A stretch of 64,000 nucleotides of DNA, taken from positions 36,552 through 100,551 of the forward strand of contig JAFIFU010000010.1 in assembly GCA_020831885.1 (NCBI GenBank). Direction: 5' to 3'. Made by a program: the position numbers and the translations under genes. Below, in pieces: positions 1 through 64,000 of this stretch; positions within the stretch are counted from its first letter, which is position 1; each line of letters begins with the position of its first letter. The notes below the pieces were generated by a model. It was not told the DNA's origin, searched no databases, and saw nothing but the letters and a program-made list of their open reading frames with translations. This DNA comes from Ectothiorhodospiraceae bacterium. GTDB taxonomy: Bacteria; Pseudomonadota; Gammaproteobacteria; Nitrococcales; Aquisalimonadaceae.

Positions 1-474
1 ACCGAGCACGAAGTGCGGCGGCCGTTCGAGATCTTCATCAACTCCAAGAACATGGACCACTTCCAGTGGATCGTCGCCCTCACGCGGATCGTTTCCGCGG
101 TATTCCGCAAGGGCGGGGACTGCACCTTCCTGGCGGAAGAGCTGCACTCCGTGTTCGACCCCCGGGGCGGCTACTTCAAAAAGGGCGGGCGCTTCATGCC
201 CTCCCTGGTGGCCGAAATCGGTGACGTGATCGAACAGCACCTGCGCAAGATCGGCATGATCGAGGCGGAAGGGCTGGACGAACACCAGCGCGCATTCATC
301 GAAAAGAAGCGCGCCGAACTGCGTGGCGAAGTGGAATACGCCGAAGAAGCGGAATCCCACACCGGCGACTACCCGGAAAACGCCCAGCTCTGCACCAAGT
401 GCAACACCAAGGCCGTGATCATGATGGACGGCTGCATGACCTGCCTGAGCTGCGGCGACAGCAAGTGCGGGTAA
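1..474 (+). CDS. nrdJ: adenosylcobalamin-dependent ribonucleoside-diphosphate reductase, C-terminal part (truncated by window start)
   Basis: Frame open from base 1; TSCPD-like tail with Cys-rich end CTKCNTKAVIMMDGCMTCLSCGDSKCG. Confidence 0.75.
   Translation, partial: TEHEVRRPFEIFINSKNMDHFQWIVALTRIVSAVFRKGGDCTFLAEELHSVFDPRGGYFKKGGRFMPSLVAEIGDVIEQHLRKIGMIEAEGLDEHQRAFIEKKRAELRGEVEYAEEAESHTGDYPENAQLCTKCNTKAVIMMDGCMTCLSCGDSKCG
458..474 (+). repeat. left copy of direct repeat ACAGCAAGTGCGGGTAA (3' end of nrdJ)
   Basis: Identical 17-mer at 59089-59105, with imperfect similarity continuing through a following hairpin. Confidence 0.75.
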
Positions 475-3857: not shown

Positions 3858-4020
3858 GTTCACCTTCGTCGTTGAACCTTGGACTTCCTCTTCCAGGATT
3901 CTGACCCCGTCCGCCTTGAACTCGGCCGTGCACCGCCGTCGTCTTTCTTTGCTCATCAATACCTCCAGTCCCAACAGTGTGGCTTAACTGGCGTGTCCGT
4001 TGCCACTGGGTCAGTTCATT
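3858..4020 (-). pseudogene. IS3-family OrfA N-terminal remnant and possible IS end
   Basis: Minus strand reads MSKERRRRCTAEFKADGVRILEEEVQGSTTKVN*; preceded by TGAACTGACCCAGTGGCAACGG, resembling an IS3-type end. Confidence 0.5.
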
Positions 4021-4227
4021 CGACCTGCCTCAACGTCTGGGCAATTTTGCTTTCTGTGAACCTGCTCTTATGCATCTTGGCCTCCTTGGGTCTGGCTTGC
4101 CCGCAGGTAAGCGAAATGATGGTTATACAGAGTAAACAATAAGTTATGTTTGCTCTGCTCGTAGAAGGGTGGGGAACGGATTGTTGGGGTATGGAAGTTG
4201 ACTTTGTCCACAATGATGATACGTTTG

Positions 4228-14506: not shown

Positions 14507-14783
14507 AGTCCACAGGTTCCTTCAAACCGTCCGTGGAAACGGGTTAGCCCCTCTCTACTCTCTAGTAAACGTGCTTTACGCATCTGGGCACTTTGGGCTT
14601 AGTCTGCCCGTAGACCTCCAGTTTTCAATGAACCAACCTTCAGGGAAAGCGACAGACTCACCCGGAACAAAAGGTGTCCGGTTGATACAGCTATCCGTTA
14701 GCCAGCGCAGCGTAAAGCACTGGGACCCCGGTTTCTTTTTCGTGTGTCTGTCACCTGAGAAGGGACTGAAATGAATTCATAAA

Positions 14784-35120: not shown

Positions 35121-35191
35121 GCCTAACGCCGGACGTGAGCGGCGGGCGAAAAGCACAAGTTTGGTCCGTCCGTTCGACGGACTTGTTGGGC
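35121..35191 (-). repeat. attC-like recombination site (strongest candidate)
   Basis: Minus strand: GCCCAAC-AAGTCCGTCGAACGGACGGACC...CCGGC-GTTAGGC; both outer boxes fit RYYYAAC/GTTRRRY; internal hairpin GTCCGT/ACGGAC; 71 bp between two minus-strand ORFs. Confidence 0.65.
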
Positions 35192-59043: not shown

Positions 59044-59088
59044 AAGCGCTGGTGTGAAGACCTCAGTGGTTCCTTACACTGGCAATCC

Positions 59089-59105
59089 ACAGCAAGTGCG
59101 GGTAA
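59089..59105 (+). repeat. right copy of direct repeat ACAGCAAGTGCGGGTAA
   Basis: Matches 458-474; also followed by a GGAGGC...GCCTCC-type hairpin (GAGGCATGTTTGCCTC). Confidence 0.75.
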
Positions 59106-59213
59106 CTCGGGCGACGGGAGGCATGTTTGCCTCCCCTCCGCCCAGCGGCTAAAGTCGGATCAGAAGAAGAAGGGCAGGGAGGGTGGCCACCGGTGGTTCC
59201 ACCCATCGCCCCT

Positions 59214-59561
59214 TCAGGGCGCATTCAGCGGGCTGCGCACCGCCAGCCCGCCCCGATTGAGCACGTGCGTATGGTTCTGCGTGCTGGCCGCCACATTACG
59301 CTTCAAAGCCAGGTGCTCAAGGAACGCCCCGACCTGCGTTGGCCCCAACTGCGTGGGCCCCTGCCGGTTGAAGTACAGAAGAAACCGGCATACCCAGCCG
59401 AGATAGGCCTTCTCAGTGCGGATAGACATGCCCCGCCCCCGTATTACCGACGAAAGCCGGGCAAACACCTCCAGGTGCTGGCGGATGAGGGGTGCGAAGC
59501 GCGTATCCCCGATCCGATTGGCGTACTCTTCGGGCGTGACCGGTTGGAACTCCCGCCCTAC
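59214..59561 (-). pseudogene. intI: integron integrase (tyrosine recombinase) remnant with internal deletion
   Basis: N-terminal SIRTEKAYLGWVCRFLLYFNRQGPTQLGPTQVGAFLEHLALKRNVAASTQN joined directly to C-terminal THVLNRGGLAVRSPLNAP; catalytic core absent. Confidence 0.7.
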
Positions 59562-59707
59562 GTGTCAACCTGCCTGCCGACAGTGACCCAGGAGAAACGT
59601 GTATAACGTAGGGCACTGTAGAGGAGCAGCGGATCGTGGACGAGAACAACGAAGTGCAAATCGAGCCGAGCCTTTGAGCGGCGCACCCGTCGACAGTTCT
59701 CCGGGGC

Positions 59708-59815
59708 GGAGTGGGCTACCCTGAACTGAGGAAGCAAGGCATTTCCAGGGATTTGGCCCGGAACACTGCCAAATCGGCGCACAGTCCGTGGCGCCTGAGC
59801 AGAAGCCCCGCCCTG
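59708..59815 (+). pseudogene. group II intron maturase/RT C-terminal fragment
   Basis: GYPELRKQGISRDLARNTAKSAHSPWRLSRSPAL. Confidence 0.65.
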
Positions 59816-59854
59816 TCCCGATTAGGTGACCGCAAATACGAACGGAGCCTGTGC

Positions 59855-60664
59855 GTGATCGGAGCAATCTCGGGAGATGTCATAGGGTCCGTGCACGAAG
59901 GTGCGCCCCCGATGGCGAAGGACTTTCCGCTGTTCGTGCCGAGCTCGACGTTCACGGATGACACGGTGCTCACCGTCGCGGTGGCCAGCGCGATTCGGGA
60001 AGGCGCCGGGTTCGGGGCCTCGATTCGGCGATGGGGGAGACGTTACCCGAACGCAGGGTACGGCGGTTGGTTCCGTCGCTGGCTCTTCCGCGAAGACGCC
60101 GCGCCCTACAATAGTTTTGGAAACGGGTCGGCGATGCGGGTGGCAGCCATCGGATGGGCATTCGACGATCTCGACGTGGCGCTGCGTGAGGCGGCCAAGA
60201 GCGCGGAAGTCACGCACAACCATCCGGAGGGAATAAAGGGTGCCCAAGCAGTCGCCGCGGCAGTACTGGCCGGCCGCATGGGCCAAACGAAGGACCGGAT
60301 GGCCGCCCTGTTATCCGACCGTTTCGGCTACGATTGCAGCATGGAGTTGAGCGTTCTGCAGCGTCGCGGCGAGTTCGACGTGACTTGCCAGGGCACAGTC
60401 CCGGCCGCCGCAGTTGCATTTCTCCAGTCGACCAGTTTCGAGGATGCCGTCCGTAACGCCGTTTCGTTCGGTGGTGATGCCGACACGCTCGCATGCATCG
60501 CCGGCGCGATGGCTGAAGCACACTACGGCGGCGTGCCGGCGGAGATCCAAGTCGAAGTCCTCCGTCGCCTGGATGATCGCTTGCGGGCTGAGGTCGTGGC
60601 TTTTGCTCAACGCTACGGCGTACCGCTCGCCGGTGACGTCGACGGGAACACCGGGGAACGATGA
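59855..60664 (+). CDS. ADP-ribosylglycohydrolase family protein
   Basis: GTG start; IGAISGDVIGSVHE, FTDDTVLTVAVA, NGSAMRVAAIGWAF, GGDADTLACIAGAMAEAHYG. Confidence 0.8.
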   Translation: MIGAISGDVIGSVHEGAPPMAKDFPLFVPSSTFTDDTVLTVAVASAIREGAGFGASIRRWGRRYPNAGYGGWFRRWLFREDAAPYNSFGNGSAMRVAAIGWAFDDLDVALREAAKSAEVTHNHPEGIKGAQAVAAAVLAGRMGQTKDRMAALLSDRFGYDCSMELSVLQRRGEFDVTCQGTVPAAAVAFLQSTSFEDAVRNAVSFGGDADTLACIAGAMAEAHYGGVPAEIQVEVLRRLDDRLRAEVVAFAQRYGVPLAGDVDGNTGER

Positions 60665-61105: not shown

Positions 61106-61174
61106 ATGAACATCGAGATCCAAGCCGAAGTCGACGCCACACCCAAGGCCGTCTGGAAGAATGAGGTCTCCTGA
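61106..61174 (+). pseudogene. SRPBCC/AHSA1-like N-terminal remnant
   Basis: MNIEIQAEVDATPKAVWKNEVS* then TGATG overlap with the next gene. Confidence 0.4.
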
Positions 61175-61776
61175 TGGGTAAGCTCACGGTCCAGATGTTC
61201 GTCACGCTGGACGGTGTCGTCCAGGCGCCCGGTGGGCCGGAAGAGGACCGTGAAGGAGGCTTCCCACACGGGGGCTGGCAGTTCCCGTTCCTCGACGAGT
61301 GCTGCCTAGGCGAGATCGGGAAAAACCTTGAGGGCATGGACGCGCTGCTTATGGGCCGTAAGACCTACGACATCTTCGCCGGCTACTGGCCCAAGGCTCC
61401 CGCCGGTAACCGCTTCGCCCGGAAGATGAACGAGGTTCCCAAATACGTGGCGTCGCGCACGCTCGATCAGGTCGACTGGAACAATGCCCGGCGCATCGAA
61501 GGCGATCTCACCAAGGCGGTCGAGAGGATCAAGGTGGACCACGGCGACGTGTACGTCATCGGCAGCGCGGACCTTGTACAGTCCCTGATGCACCGGGGGC
61601 TCGTGGACCGATTCGTCCTCGTCATCTACCCAATCGTCCTCGGTAGCGGGAAGCGTCTGTTCCCCGAGGGCGTCGATCCCGCACGGCTCAAGCTTGTCGA
61701 GTCGCGCGCGGGCGAAAGCGGCGCCGTCCTCATGACGTACGAGTCCGACGGAAAACCGACGTATGGCACGATGTGA
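61174..61776 (+). CDS. dihydrofolate reductase / RibD C-terminal domain family protein
   Basis: MFVTLDGVVQAPGGPEED, LLMGRKTYDIFAGYWP, VIGSADLVQSLM, GSGKRLFPEG. Confidence 0.8.
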   Translation: MGKLTVQMFVTLDGVVQAPGGPEEDREGGFPHGGWQFPFLDECCLGEIGKNLEGMDALLMGRKTYDIFAGYWPKAPAGNRFARKMNEVPKYVASRTLDQVDWNNARRIEGDLTKAVERIKVDHGDVYVIGSADLVQSLMHRGLVDRFVLVIYPIVLGSGKRLFPEGVDPARLKLVESRAGESGAVLMTYESDGKPTYGTM

Positions 61777-61815: not shown

Positions 61816-61880
61816 GCAGAACAAATCGCTCAAGCCGACGCCTCCGCTTCGCTCCGGCATGGCTTGGATCAACGTTATGC
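61816..61880 (+). repeat. attC-like recombination site (candidate)
   Basis: GCAGAACAAATCGCTCAAGCCGACGCC...GGCATGGCTTGGATCAACGTTATGC; AAGCC/GGCTT stem; ~50 bp before the MAPEG gene. Confidence 0.6.
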
Positions 61881-61928: not shown

Positions 61929-62321
61929 ATGACCATCGCTCTTTGGTGTCTCCTCGCAGCCATCCTCGCGCCGTACATCCTTTCTGTTATTGCTCGATCC
62001 CAGGTTTCCCGGCGTCAGTATGTCGATGATCCCCGTGCTTATAGCGAGGGCCTCGACGGCTGGCAGCGACGAGCACACCTGGCGCATCTTAATGCGTTCG
62101 AGGCTGTGCCAGCCATCGTTGCCGGTGTGCTGGTTGCCCAGTTCGTGCAGGCGCCGCAGGCATACGTCGACGGTCTTGCCATTGCGTTCATTGCATTTCG
62201 GGTGCTTCACGCGGTTTTTTATGTGACCGATAAGCCGATGCTCAGAAGTCATGCATGGCGTCTCGGCATGCTGTGTGTCATCGGGCTGTTTGTTGTGGCT
62301 GGCGTGTATGGGAGCGTTTAG
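61929..62321 (+). CDS. MAPEG-family protein
   Basis: RAHLAHLNAFEAVPAIVAGVLVAQ, AFIAFRVLHAVFYVTDKPMLRSHAWRLGM. Confidence 0.8.
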   Translation: MTIALWCLLAAILAPYILSVIARSQVSRRQYVDDPRAYSEGLDGWQRRAHLAHLNAFEAVPAIVAGVLVAQFVQAPQAYVDGLAIAFIAFRVLHAVFYVTDKPMLRSHAWRLGMLCVIGLFVVAGVYGSV

Positions 62322-62355: not shown

Positions 62356-62510
62356 GCCGGTGCAGGATCTGGACAAGTGGATCAGGCGGCGATTGCGGAG
62401 TTACCTTTGGAAGCAATGGGGCAGAGCGGGCTACCGTCATGGTACGGGATCCGTATGCCCGGTGGTGTGGGAGGAACGGGGCCCTGAGGTCTCGCCCAAT
62501 CCCGTTCAGG
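62356..62510 (+). pseudogene. group II intron 3' remnant (RT C-terminus plus domain V/VI-like sequence)
   Basis: LDKWIRRRLRSYLWKQWGRAGYR then GGTACGGGATCCGTATGCCCGGTGGTGTGGGAGGA and GCCCAATCCCG. Confidence 0.6.
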
Positions 62511-62540: not shown

Positions 62541-62789
62541 ATGCTACAGCTACGTCCCAGTTGCGAGTGCTGCGACAAAGATTTGCCGCCGCACTCAACC
62601 GAAGCTCGAATCTGTTCCTTCGAATGCACCTTCTGCGTCTCATGTGCAGAAGGCGTATTGAAAGGCCATTGTCCAAACTGTGGCGGGGAACTGGTGGCGC
62701 GTCCGAGGCGCCCTGAAGCCAAACTTGCGAAGTTTCCGGCCTCCACTGATCGGGTGTTTAAGCCGGAAGGCTGCCACAAGGCAGGATAA
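62541..62789 (+). CDS. DUF1272 small Cys-rich protein
   Basis: MLQLRPSCECCDKDLPPHSTEARICSFECTFCVSCAEGVLKGHCPNCGGELVARPRRP. Confidence 0.85.
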   Translation: MLQLRPSCECCDKDLPPHSTEARICSFECTFCVSCAEGVLKGHCPNCGGELVARPRRPEAKLAKFPASTDRVFKPEGCHKAG

Positions 62790-62872: not shown

Positions 62873-62908
62873 AGCGTGCTTCCACGTTGCCGAAGTGCTG
62901 AGCCCGCT

Positions 62909-62944
62909 GCAGGAGCTGGATAAGTGGATCAGGCGGCGATTGCG
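62909..62944 (+). repeat. second copy of group II intron maturase C-terminal segment
   Basis: GCAGGAGCTGGATAAGTGGATCAGGCGGCGATTGCG, near-identical to 62362-62397. Confidence 0.65.
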
Positions 62945-63019: not shown

Positions 63020-63499
63020 ATGTCAGATGCGCAGCATACGCAAGACGAGGGGTCGGGCGTAAAGATACCGCCTCCACTTATCTATCTTGGGGTATTCGTT
63101 ATCGGCGCAGGTTTGAGCCTGGTTCTTCCTGTGGCCGAAATGCCAAAACTTCCCCTGCGCATGCTTGCGGGAGTTCTCGTGATCCTATGGCTCGTATTTG
63201 ATCTTGGCAGCATGCTTGTCTTTCATCGGGCCAAGACGGGCATTGCGCCGGCCCAACCTGTGACTCAGCTTGTAACGTGGGGCCCATACCGCTATACCCG
63301 GAATCCAATGTACCTGGGGATGCTCTGTTTGTACCTGGCGGCGTCAATCTGGTTCAACTTGCTTTGGGCGCTCTTATTTCTTCCTCTGCTTATATGGCTC
63401 ATATCAAGGTACGTTATTGCGAAGGAGGAGGAGTATATGGAGCGAAAATTTGGTGAAGACTACCGACAGTATCGCGAAAAGGTTCGGCGCTGGATATAG
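63020..63499 (+). CDS. isoprenylcysteine carboxyl methyltransferase (ICMT)-like membrane protein
   Basis: TWGPYRYTRNPMYLGMLCLYLAASIWFN, IAKEEEYMERKFGEDYRQYREKVRRW. Confidence 0.85.
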   Translation: MSDAQHTQDEGSGVKIPPPLIYLGVFVIGAGLSLVLPVAEMPKLPLRMLAGVLVILWLVFDLGSMLVFHRAKTGIAPAQPVTQLVTWGPYRYTRNPMYLGMLCLYLAASIWFNLLWALLFLPLLIWLISRYVIAKEEEYMERKFGEDYRQYREKVRRWI

Positions 63500-63843: not shown

Positions 63844-64000
63844 GGAAGCGCTGATCGATTCCCATGGTGCTCTGGCTTTGCAGCGTGTTCGGGGGCAAGG
63901 CGCGGCTCGCAGGCAATGGCGAGCCCTTGGCAAGCGCCGCAACGCGGCACCCGGACACGCTGCAAAGCCCCGTAGGGCGGGCCATTCGCGCACGCTGAGC
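63844..64000. mobile_element. terminal part of the dispersed element (continues beyond window)
   Basis: GGAAGCGCTGATCGATTCCCATGGTG is the inverse of the ends at 26920 and 40350; ~80-bp similarity to 26866-26945. Confidence 0.55.

Follow-up and report, generated by a model that had tools for sequence, protein, structure and literature searches.

The minus-strand ORF at 59214–59561 of the window (the whole stretch of 64,000 nucleotides analysed here) is, with a probability which we put at about 0.93, the pseudogene of a chromosomal integron integrase (intI), the relic of an integron that lay convergently behind the ribonucleotide reductase gene nrdJ. The locus is a real, well-resolved and essentially ordinary pseudo-integron; its features are collected in Table 1.

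Identity of the remnant and its two lesions

The ORF reads as quoted in the preliminary description, in which it was taken for an integron integrase reduced to its two ends by an internal deletion, with the frame preserved and the whole catalytic core gone. Among the NCBIfam models the ORF scores highest with TIGR02249 [integron integrase; 60.2 bits in two stretches], the best non-integron (Xer-type) model reaching 14.3 bits; the remnant thus bears out the assignment to IntI, while lying below the family cut-off of 265 bits (intact relatives: 471 and 472 bits). Residues 34–98 match PF13495 [Phage_int_SAM_4; cut-off 27 bits], a SAM-like core-binding domain. What is left is one such DNA-binding region fused in frame to the last ~18 residues of IntI.

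An intact IntI is encoded in G001, a metagenome-assembled genome (MAG) of the same genus [contig JAFIFV010000021.1, “Ectothiorhodospiraceae bacterium”; L040:5265–6653, 462 aa, TIGR02249 471 bits], and another in Thioalkalivibrio halophilus [L041:3595–4980, 461 aa]. Both are long IntI in which the TIGR02249 match starts at residue 150; within the N-terminal extension of ~149 aa there is a second SAM_4-like domain (27.8 bits against the cut-off of 27). Relative to the G001 protein the remnant keeps codons ~119–212 and 444–461, its 5' piece being 78% identical to residues 117–212 of the intact congener and its C-terminal piece 83% identical to residues 439–461.

Mapped on the G001 orthologue, the internal deletion amounts to 693 bp, or 231 codons (213–443), and the loss of the core with retention of the frame is confirmed. 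The catalytic residues R, K, HxxR, H and Y are missing, the codon at the Tyr position being CAT (His), as is the additional domain (patch) specific to IntI; by the usual positions of these motifs in the family, all of them lie within the deleted codons. The parental segments at the junction are GTCAGCACGCAGAACCTGG on the left (G001) and GCCACCACCCAGATCTATACC (G001) or CCACCACGCAGATTTATACC (G002, a second congener) on the right, and the product in the window, known from one assembly, is GCCAGCACGCAGAACCATACGCAC. The switch falls inside an aligned imperfect repeat, and the codon at the junction combines letters from the two parents. Since both repeat copies encode (S/T)TQ in the same reading frame, the deletion was automatically in frame. 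Codons 213–443 were lost between these short imperfect in-phase repeats, we suggest through replication slippage or another short-repeat mechanism. G002 still has the sequence deleted in the window, and therefore does not share the deletion.

The second lesion is at the 5' side, and here the phrase “two ends” needs correction: the native N-terminus (start codon and codons 1–118) is lost as well. The intI homology reaches as far as 59556 and gives way there to a 156-bp IS end, copies of which in contigs C6 and C44 run on into a transposase-like ORF. The attI site expected on the 59.6-kb side was not found next to the remnant; the IS end and then group II intron debris stand there instead. A hairpin at 59555–59614, considered as an attC site, was rejected as part of the IS end.

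Table 1. Features of the intI relic and its surroundings in the window
Feature	Position	Strand	Evidence
nrdJ (split class II ribonucleotide reductase), C-terminal TSCPD subunit gene, 3' end; ancestral neighbour of intI	1..474	+	96% to G002 gene; enters from C96:36321
nrdJ 3' end and terminator, second copy, directly before the intI remnant	59088..59134	+	83% over 48 columns to 458–503
intI remnant, 3' piece, last ~18 codons and stop (HVLNRGGLAVRSPLNAP)	59214..59271	-	83% identity to G001 IntI residues 439–461
Deletion junction, between aligned imperfect repeats	59265..59288	-	Compared with both parental segments in G001, G002 and T. halophilus
intI remnant, 5' piece, codons ~119–212, inner SAM-like domain	59272..59556	-	76% DNA identity to L040:5618–5901; PF13495 63.5 bits
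IS end fragment in place of intI 5' end and attI	59556..59711	+	93–100% identical copies or parts in contigs C6, C44, C54 and C23
Group II intron maturase (ltrA) fragment	59711..59818	+	73.5% to annotated ltrA, E 7e-8
ADP-ribosylglycohydrolase, cassette-like gene	59855..60664	+	PF03747 110.8 bits
RibD C-terminal (dihydrofolate reductase-like) protein, cassette-like gene	61174..61776	+	PF01872 83.2 bits
attC	61816..61880	+	R and L arms pair; arm score -18.8, ~4% tail of 200 shuffles
MAPEG family, cassette-like gene	61929..62321	+	PF01124 91.4 bits
Group II intron maturase fragment	62357..62440	+	81.5% to annotated ltrA, E 5e-8
DUF1272, cassette-like gene	62541..62789	+	PF06906 101.3 bits
Maturase fragment, second copy	62904..62944	+	93% identical to 62357–62397
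PEMT/ICMT methyltransferase, cassette-like gene	63020..63499	+	PF04191 55.8 bits

The nrdJ flank, the cassettes and the rest of the genome

In G001 and G002 the stop codon of intI lies ~110 bp past the end of a split adenosylcobalamin-dependent ribonucleotide reductase gene [NrdJ_Z 575 bits; C-terminal TSCPD subunit], the orthologous intI being intact in the former and present as a 3' end in the latter, where the contig is cut. The preliminary description had supposed that the region once carried an integron platform. We concur, because these two congeners hold intI in the same place and G001 keeps an attI-like site and, together with its cassettes, four unmistakable attC sites under the arm score used here.

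In the window nrdJ ends at 474 and its 3' end is met again as an exact 17-bp copy at 59088–59104, from which the similarity runs on into the terminator and aligns with the nrdJ ends of both congeners; a segment of 58.6 kb (458–59104) therefore separates nrdJ from the relic. It consists of TRAP and ABC transport and catabolic genes and is absent at the same place in the congeners. Searches of the window contig found no tyrosine or serine recombinases. Within the segment, distant from the integron, there is an attC-like hairpin (GCCCAAC...GTTAGGC) at 35121–35191 (minus strand). The G001 integron contig carries at its end an IS3-like transposase region, the start of which (L039:11–139) shares 82–85% identity with two stretches of the window of ~90 bp each (4019–4106 and 14558–14654).

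Sites of the attC type were sought by direct arm pairing compared with shuffles. A covariance model built from seven sites kept the outer six pairs only and was left unused. In the 4.4 kb up to the contig end this gave one convincing attC and one possible half-site; the window ends with its contig, 2.1 kb past the attC. With so few sites within reach, the relic may account, as the preliminary description proposed, for attC-like sites that have no working integrase nearby. A DNA search with the attC against plasmids gave no match, and an Rfam search nothing relevant. A strong inverted repeat (63874–63969; arms of 23 nt, 91%) lies ~30 bases before the contig end and may have caused the assembly to break within the array.

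The attI-like sites of this genome are confined to contigs C98 (5513–5537) and C49 (5131–5155) [L130, L131, L138, L139]; they resemble those of G001 and T. halophilus and stand there without intI. After the one on C49 come a small ORF and an attC-like site (L139:4583–4656), an arrangement that looks as if attI and a first cassette had moved without the integrase.

A six-frame search of the genome with intact IntI returned the remnant, in its two pieces, and matches to other tyrosine recombinases. By curated cut-offs the two best of these are XerD (C16) and XerC (C89), and the rest are weaker, so that the search revealed no further integron integrase in this genome, a draft assembly of 129 contigs. 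Taken together, the locus has lost the 5' end of intI (codons 1–118) with attI, the IS end and intron debris now being in place, as well as its catalytic core, with the 58.6-kb segment now between nrdJ and the relic. The product of the remnant would presumably have no recombinase function, in which case any cassettes still present would be mobile only with an integrase supplied from elsewhere.

Decay of intI in the family and the meaning of the kept frame

Behind the same companion gene a decayed intI was also met in four genomes of two other genera (G003, G009 and G011 of one; G004 of a third genus). All four join the N-terminal part to a C-terminal tip without a shift of frame, though at differing breakpoints: ...VHTR/SPLDMA (G003), ...TLRR/PLDMT (G004), ...GGKG/VRSPLDVA (G009) and ...LMQS/LDVA (G011), each followed by the stop codon. 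The tips of G003, G004 and G011 are very short, without significant match, and were recognised by eye, the frame being set by the shared stop. G006 (L114) has an intact relative of standard length. As the four decayed genes are of the standard type and those of the window genome and G001 of the long type, two IntI lineages occupy the same flank. The class-wide TIGR02249 search lists strong matches only, so remnants lie outside its sample.

Such regularity might suggest that the remnant is a functional mini-protein, its SAM-like domain serving as a regulator or accessory DNA binder and its frame being under selection. All 5 of the 5 nrdJ-linked remnants in the family are in frame to the C-terminal tip, and an Anaerolineales MAG (L042:10001–10399) encodes a similarly built in-frame fusion of 144 aa, an IntI N-terminal domain and a C-terminal helix including the tyrosine, and so a further IntI with an internal deletion. 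The window copy has 96 + 18 codons without a stop and shows, relative to G001, mostly third-position changes and no excess of amino-acid-changing substitutions, which would fit a recent deletion but also continued constraint and by itself would not establish function. Against this, the native start codon and attI are absent from the window copy, the frame of G009 is interrupted by a TAG and G011 has its ATG in another frame; the remnants range from ~55 to ~180 aa, and G067 has a fusion of the same kind out of frame. Moreover, exact repeats of at least 8 nt within twelve intact intI genes are distributed over the three phases as 104:49:45, that is, 104 of 198 are in phase. In-frame deletions are then expected without selection: five in-frame main deletions out of five have p = 0.004 with equal phases and ~0.04 once the micro-repeat bias is allowed for. 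Selection for a mini-protein is not needed, since the micro-repeats of intI are biased to the same phase, and as the cause of the family pattern we have mostly rejected it on the strength of the phase count and the broken frames of G009 and G011. With the out-of-frame fusion of G067 these lead us to read the pattern as short-repeat decay. We consider a functional mini-protein in the window quite improbable. Slighter still is the chance that intI behind nrdJ was repeatedly trimmed in frame to an exapted “mini-IntI” (SAM-like domain and C-terminal tip) binding integron or neighbouring DNA without recombining it. Given the in-phase bias of micro-repeats, a frame that survives an internal deletion says little about function.

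Two other readings were weighed. The draft state of the assembly and the repeats nearby (IS end and intron fragments) might have led to the collapse of an intact intI across a short repeat; we give this very little credence, for an imperfect repeat of ~12 bp should cause no read-length collapse, no fragment of the missing core occurs elsewhere in the 99.99% complete genome, and the junction codon draws on both parents. With a C-terminal piece of just ~19 residues one might also think of halves derived from different proteins, or of a non-integron Xer or phage integrase. Yet both pieces match the same orthologue at 78–83% in the right order, the DNA homology does not end with the stop codon but reaches into the nrdJ terminator, the integron model outscores the Xer-type ones and no better match of either piece to another protein was seen. 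Because both ends correspond to one intact congener IntI, the ORF is neither a chance product nor a chimera, an origin to which we assign practically no weight. A decayed integron integrase remains the reading that we prefer.

Relation to known integrons

Decay is a common fate of integron integrases. About one third of the intI genes surveyed by Nemergut et al. 2008 [PMC2426708] carried stops, frameshifts or major insertions or deletions, and the present relic belongs with such pseudogenes and “pseudo-integrons”; in this case, however, the damage has been traced closely, to an IS end that sets in at codon 119 and to an in-phase deletion between short repeats. The clade 15 IntI of the same survey, ~120 aa longer, resemble the intact orthologues described above in being lengthened proteins, but are deltaproteobacterial, unlike these orthologues. 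In Xanthomonas, integrons downstream of ilvD were acquired ancestrally, and intI was then inactivated repeatedly in separate lineages, large deletions being among the causes [PMC12444791]. What they share with the present case is a constant chromosomal gene as the site of the integron and the recurrent loss of intI; the anchor here is nrdJ, and two IntI types stand on this flank in different genera. The CALIN elements of IntegronFinder 2.0 [PMC9024848], clusters of attC without integrase and proposed to be degraded integrons, likewise hold cassette-like genes without a working integrase. Unlike them, the window retains the dead integrase in place and has one convincing attC within reach, against the two of the default definition.

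The type of decay is thus already known, whereas novelty may lie in nrdJ as the anchor, in the mapping of the lesions and in the bias of repeat phase. The locus provides a base-level account of the death of one sedentary integron, through an IS end, a short-repeat deletion and the loss of attI, with a 58.6-kb segment alongside, and it suggests nrdJ as a chromosomal site where integrons recur in the family, comparable to ilvD in Xanthomonas. Within the literature that was searched, integrons of Thioalkalivibrio are the subject of no paper. In T. halophilus the long-type intI lies behind class I nrdB rather than nrdJ, so that here too its convergent neighbour is a ribonucleotide reductase gene (L041:3595–6315).
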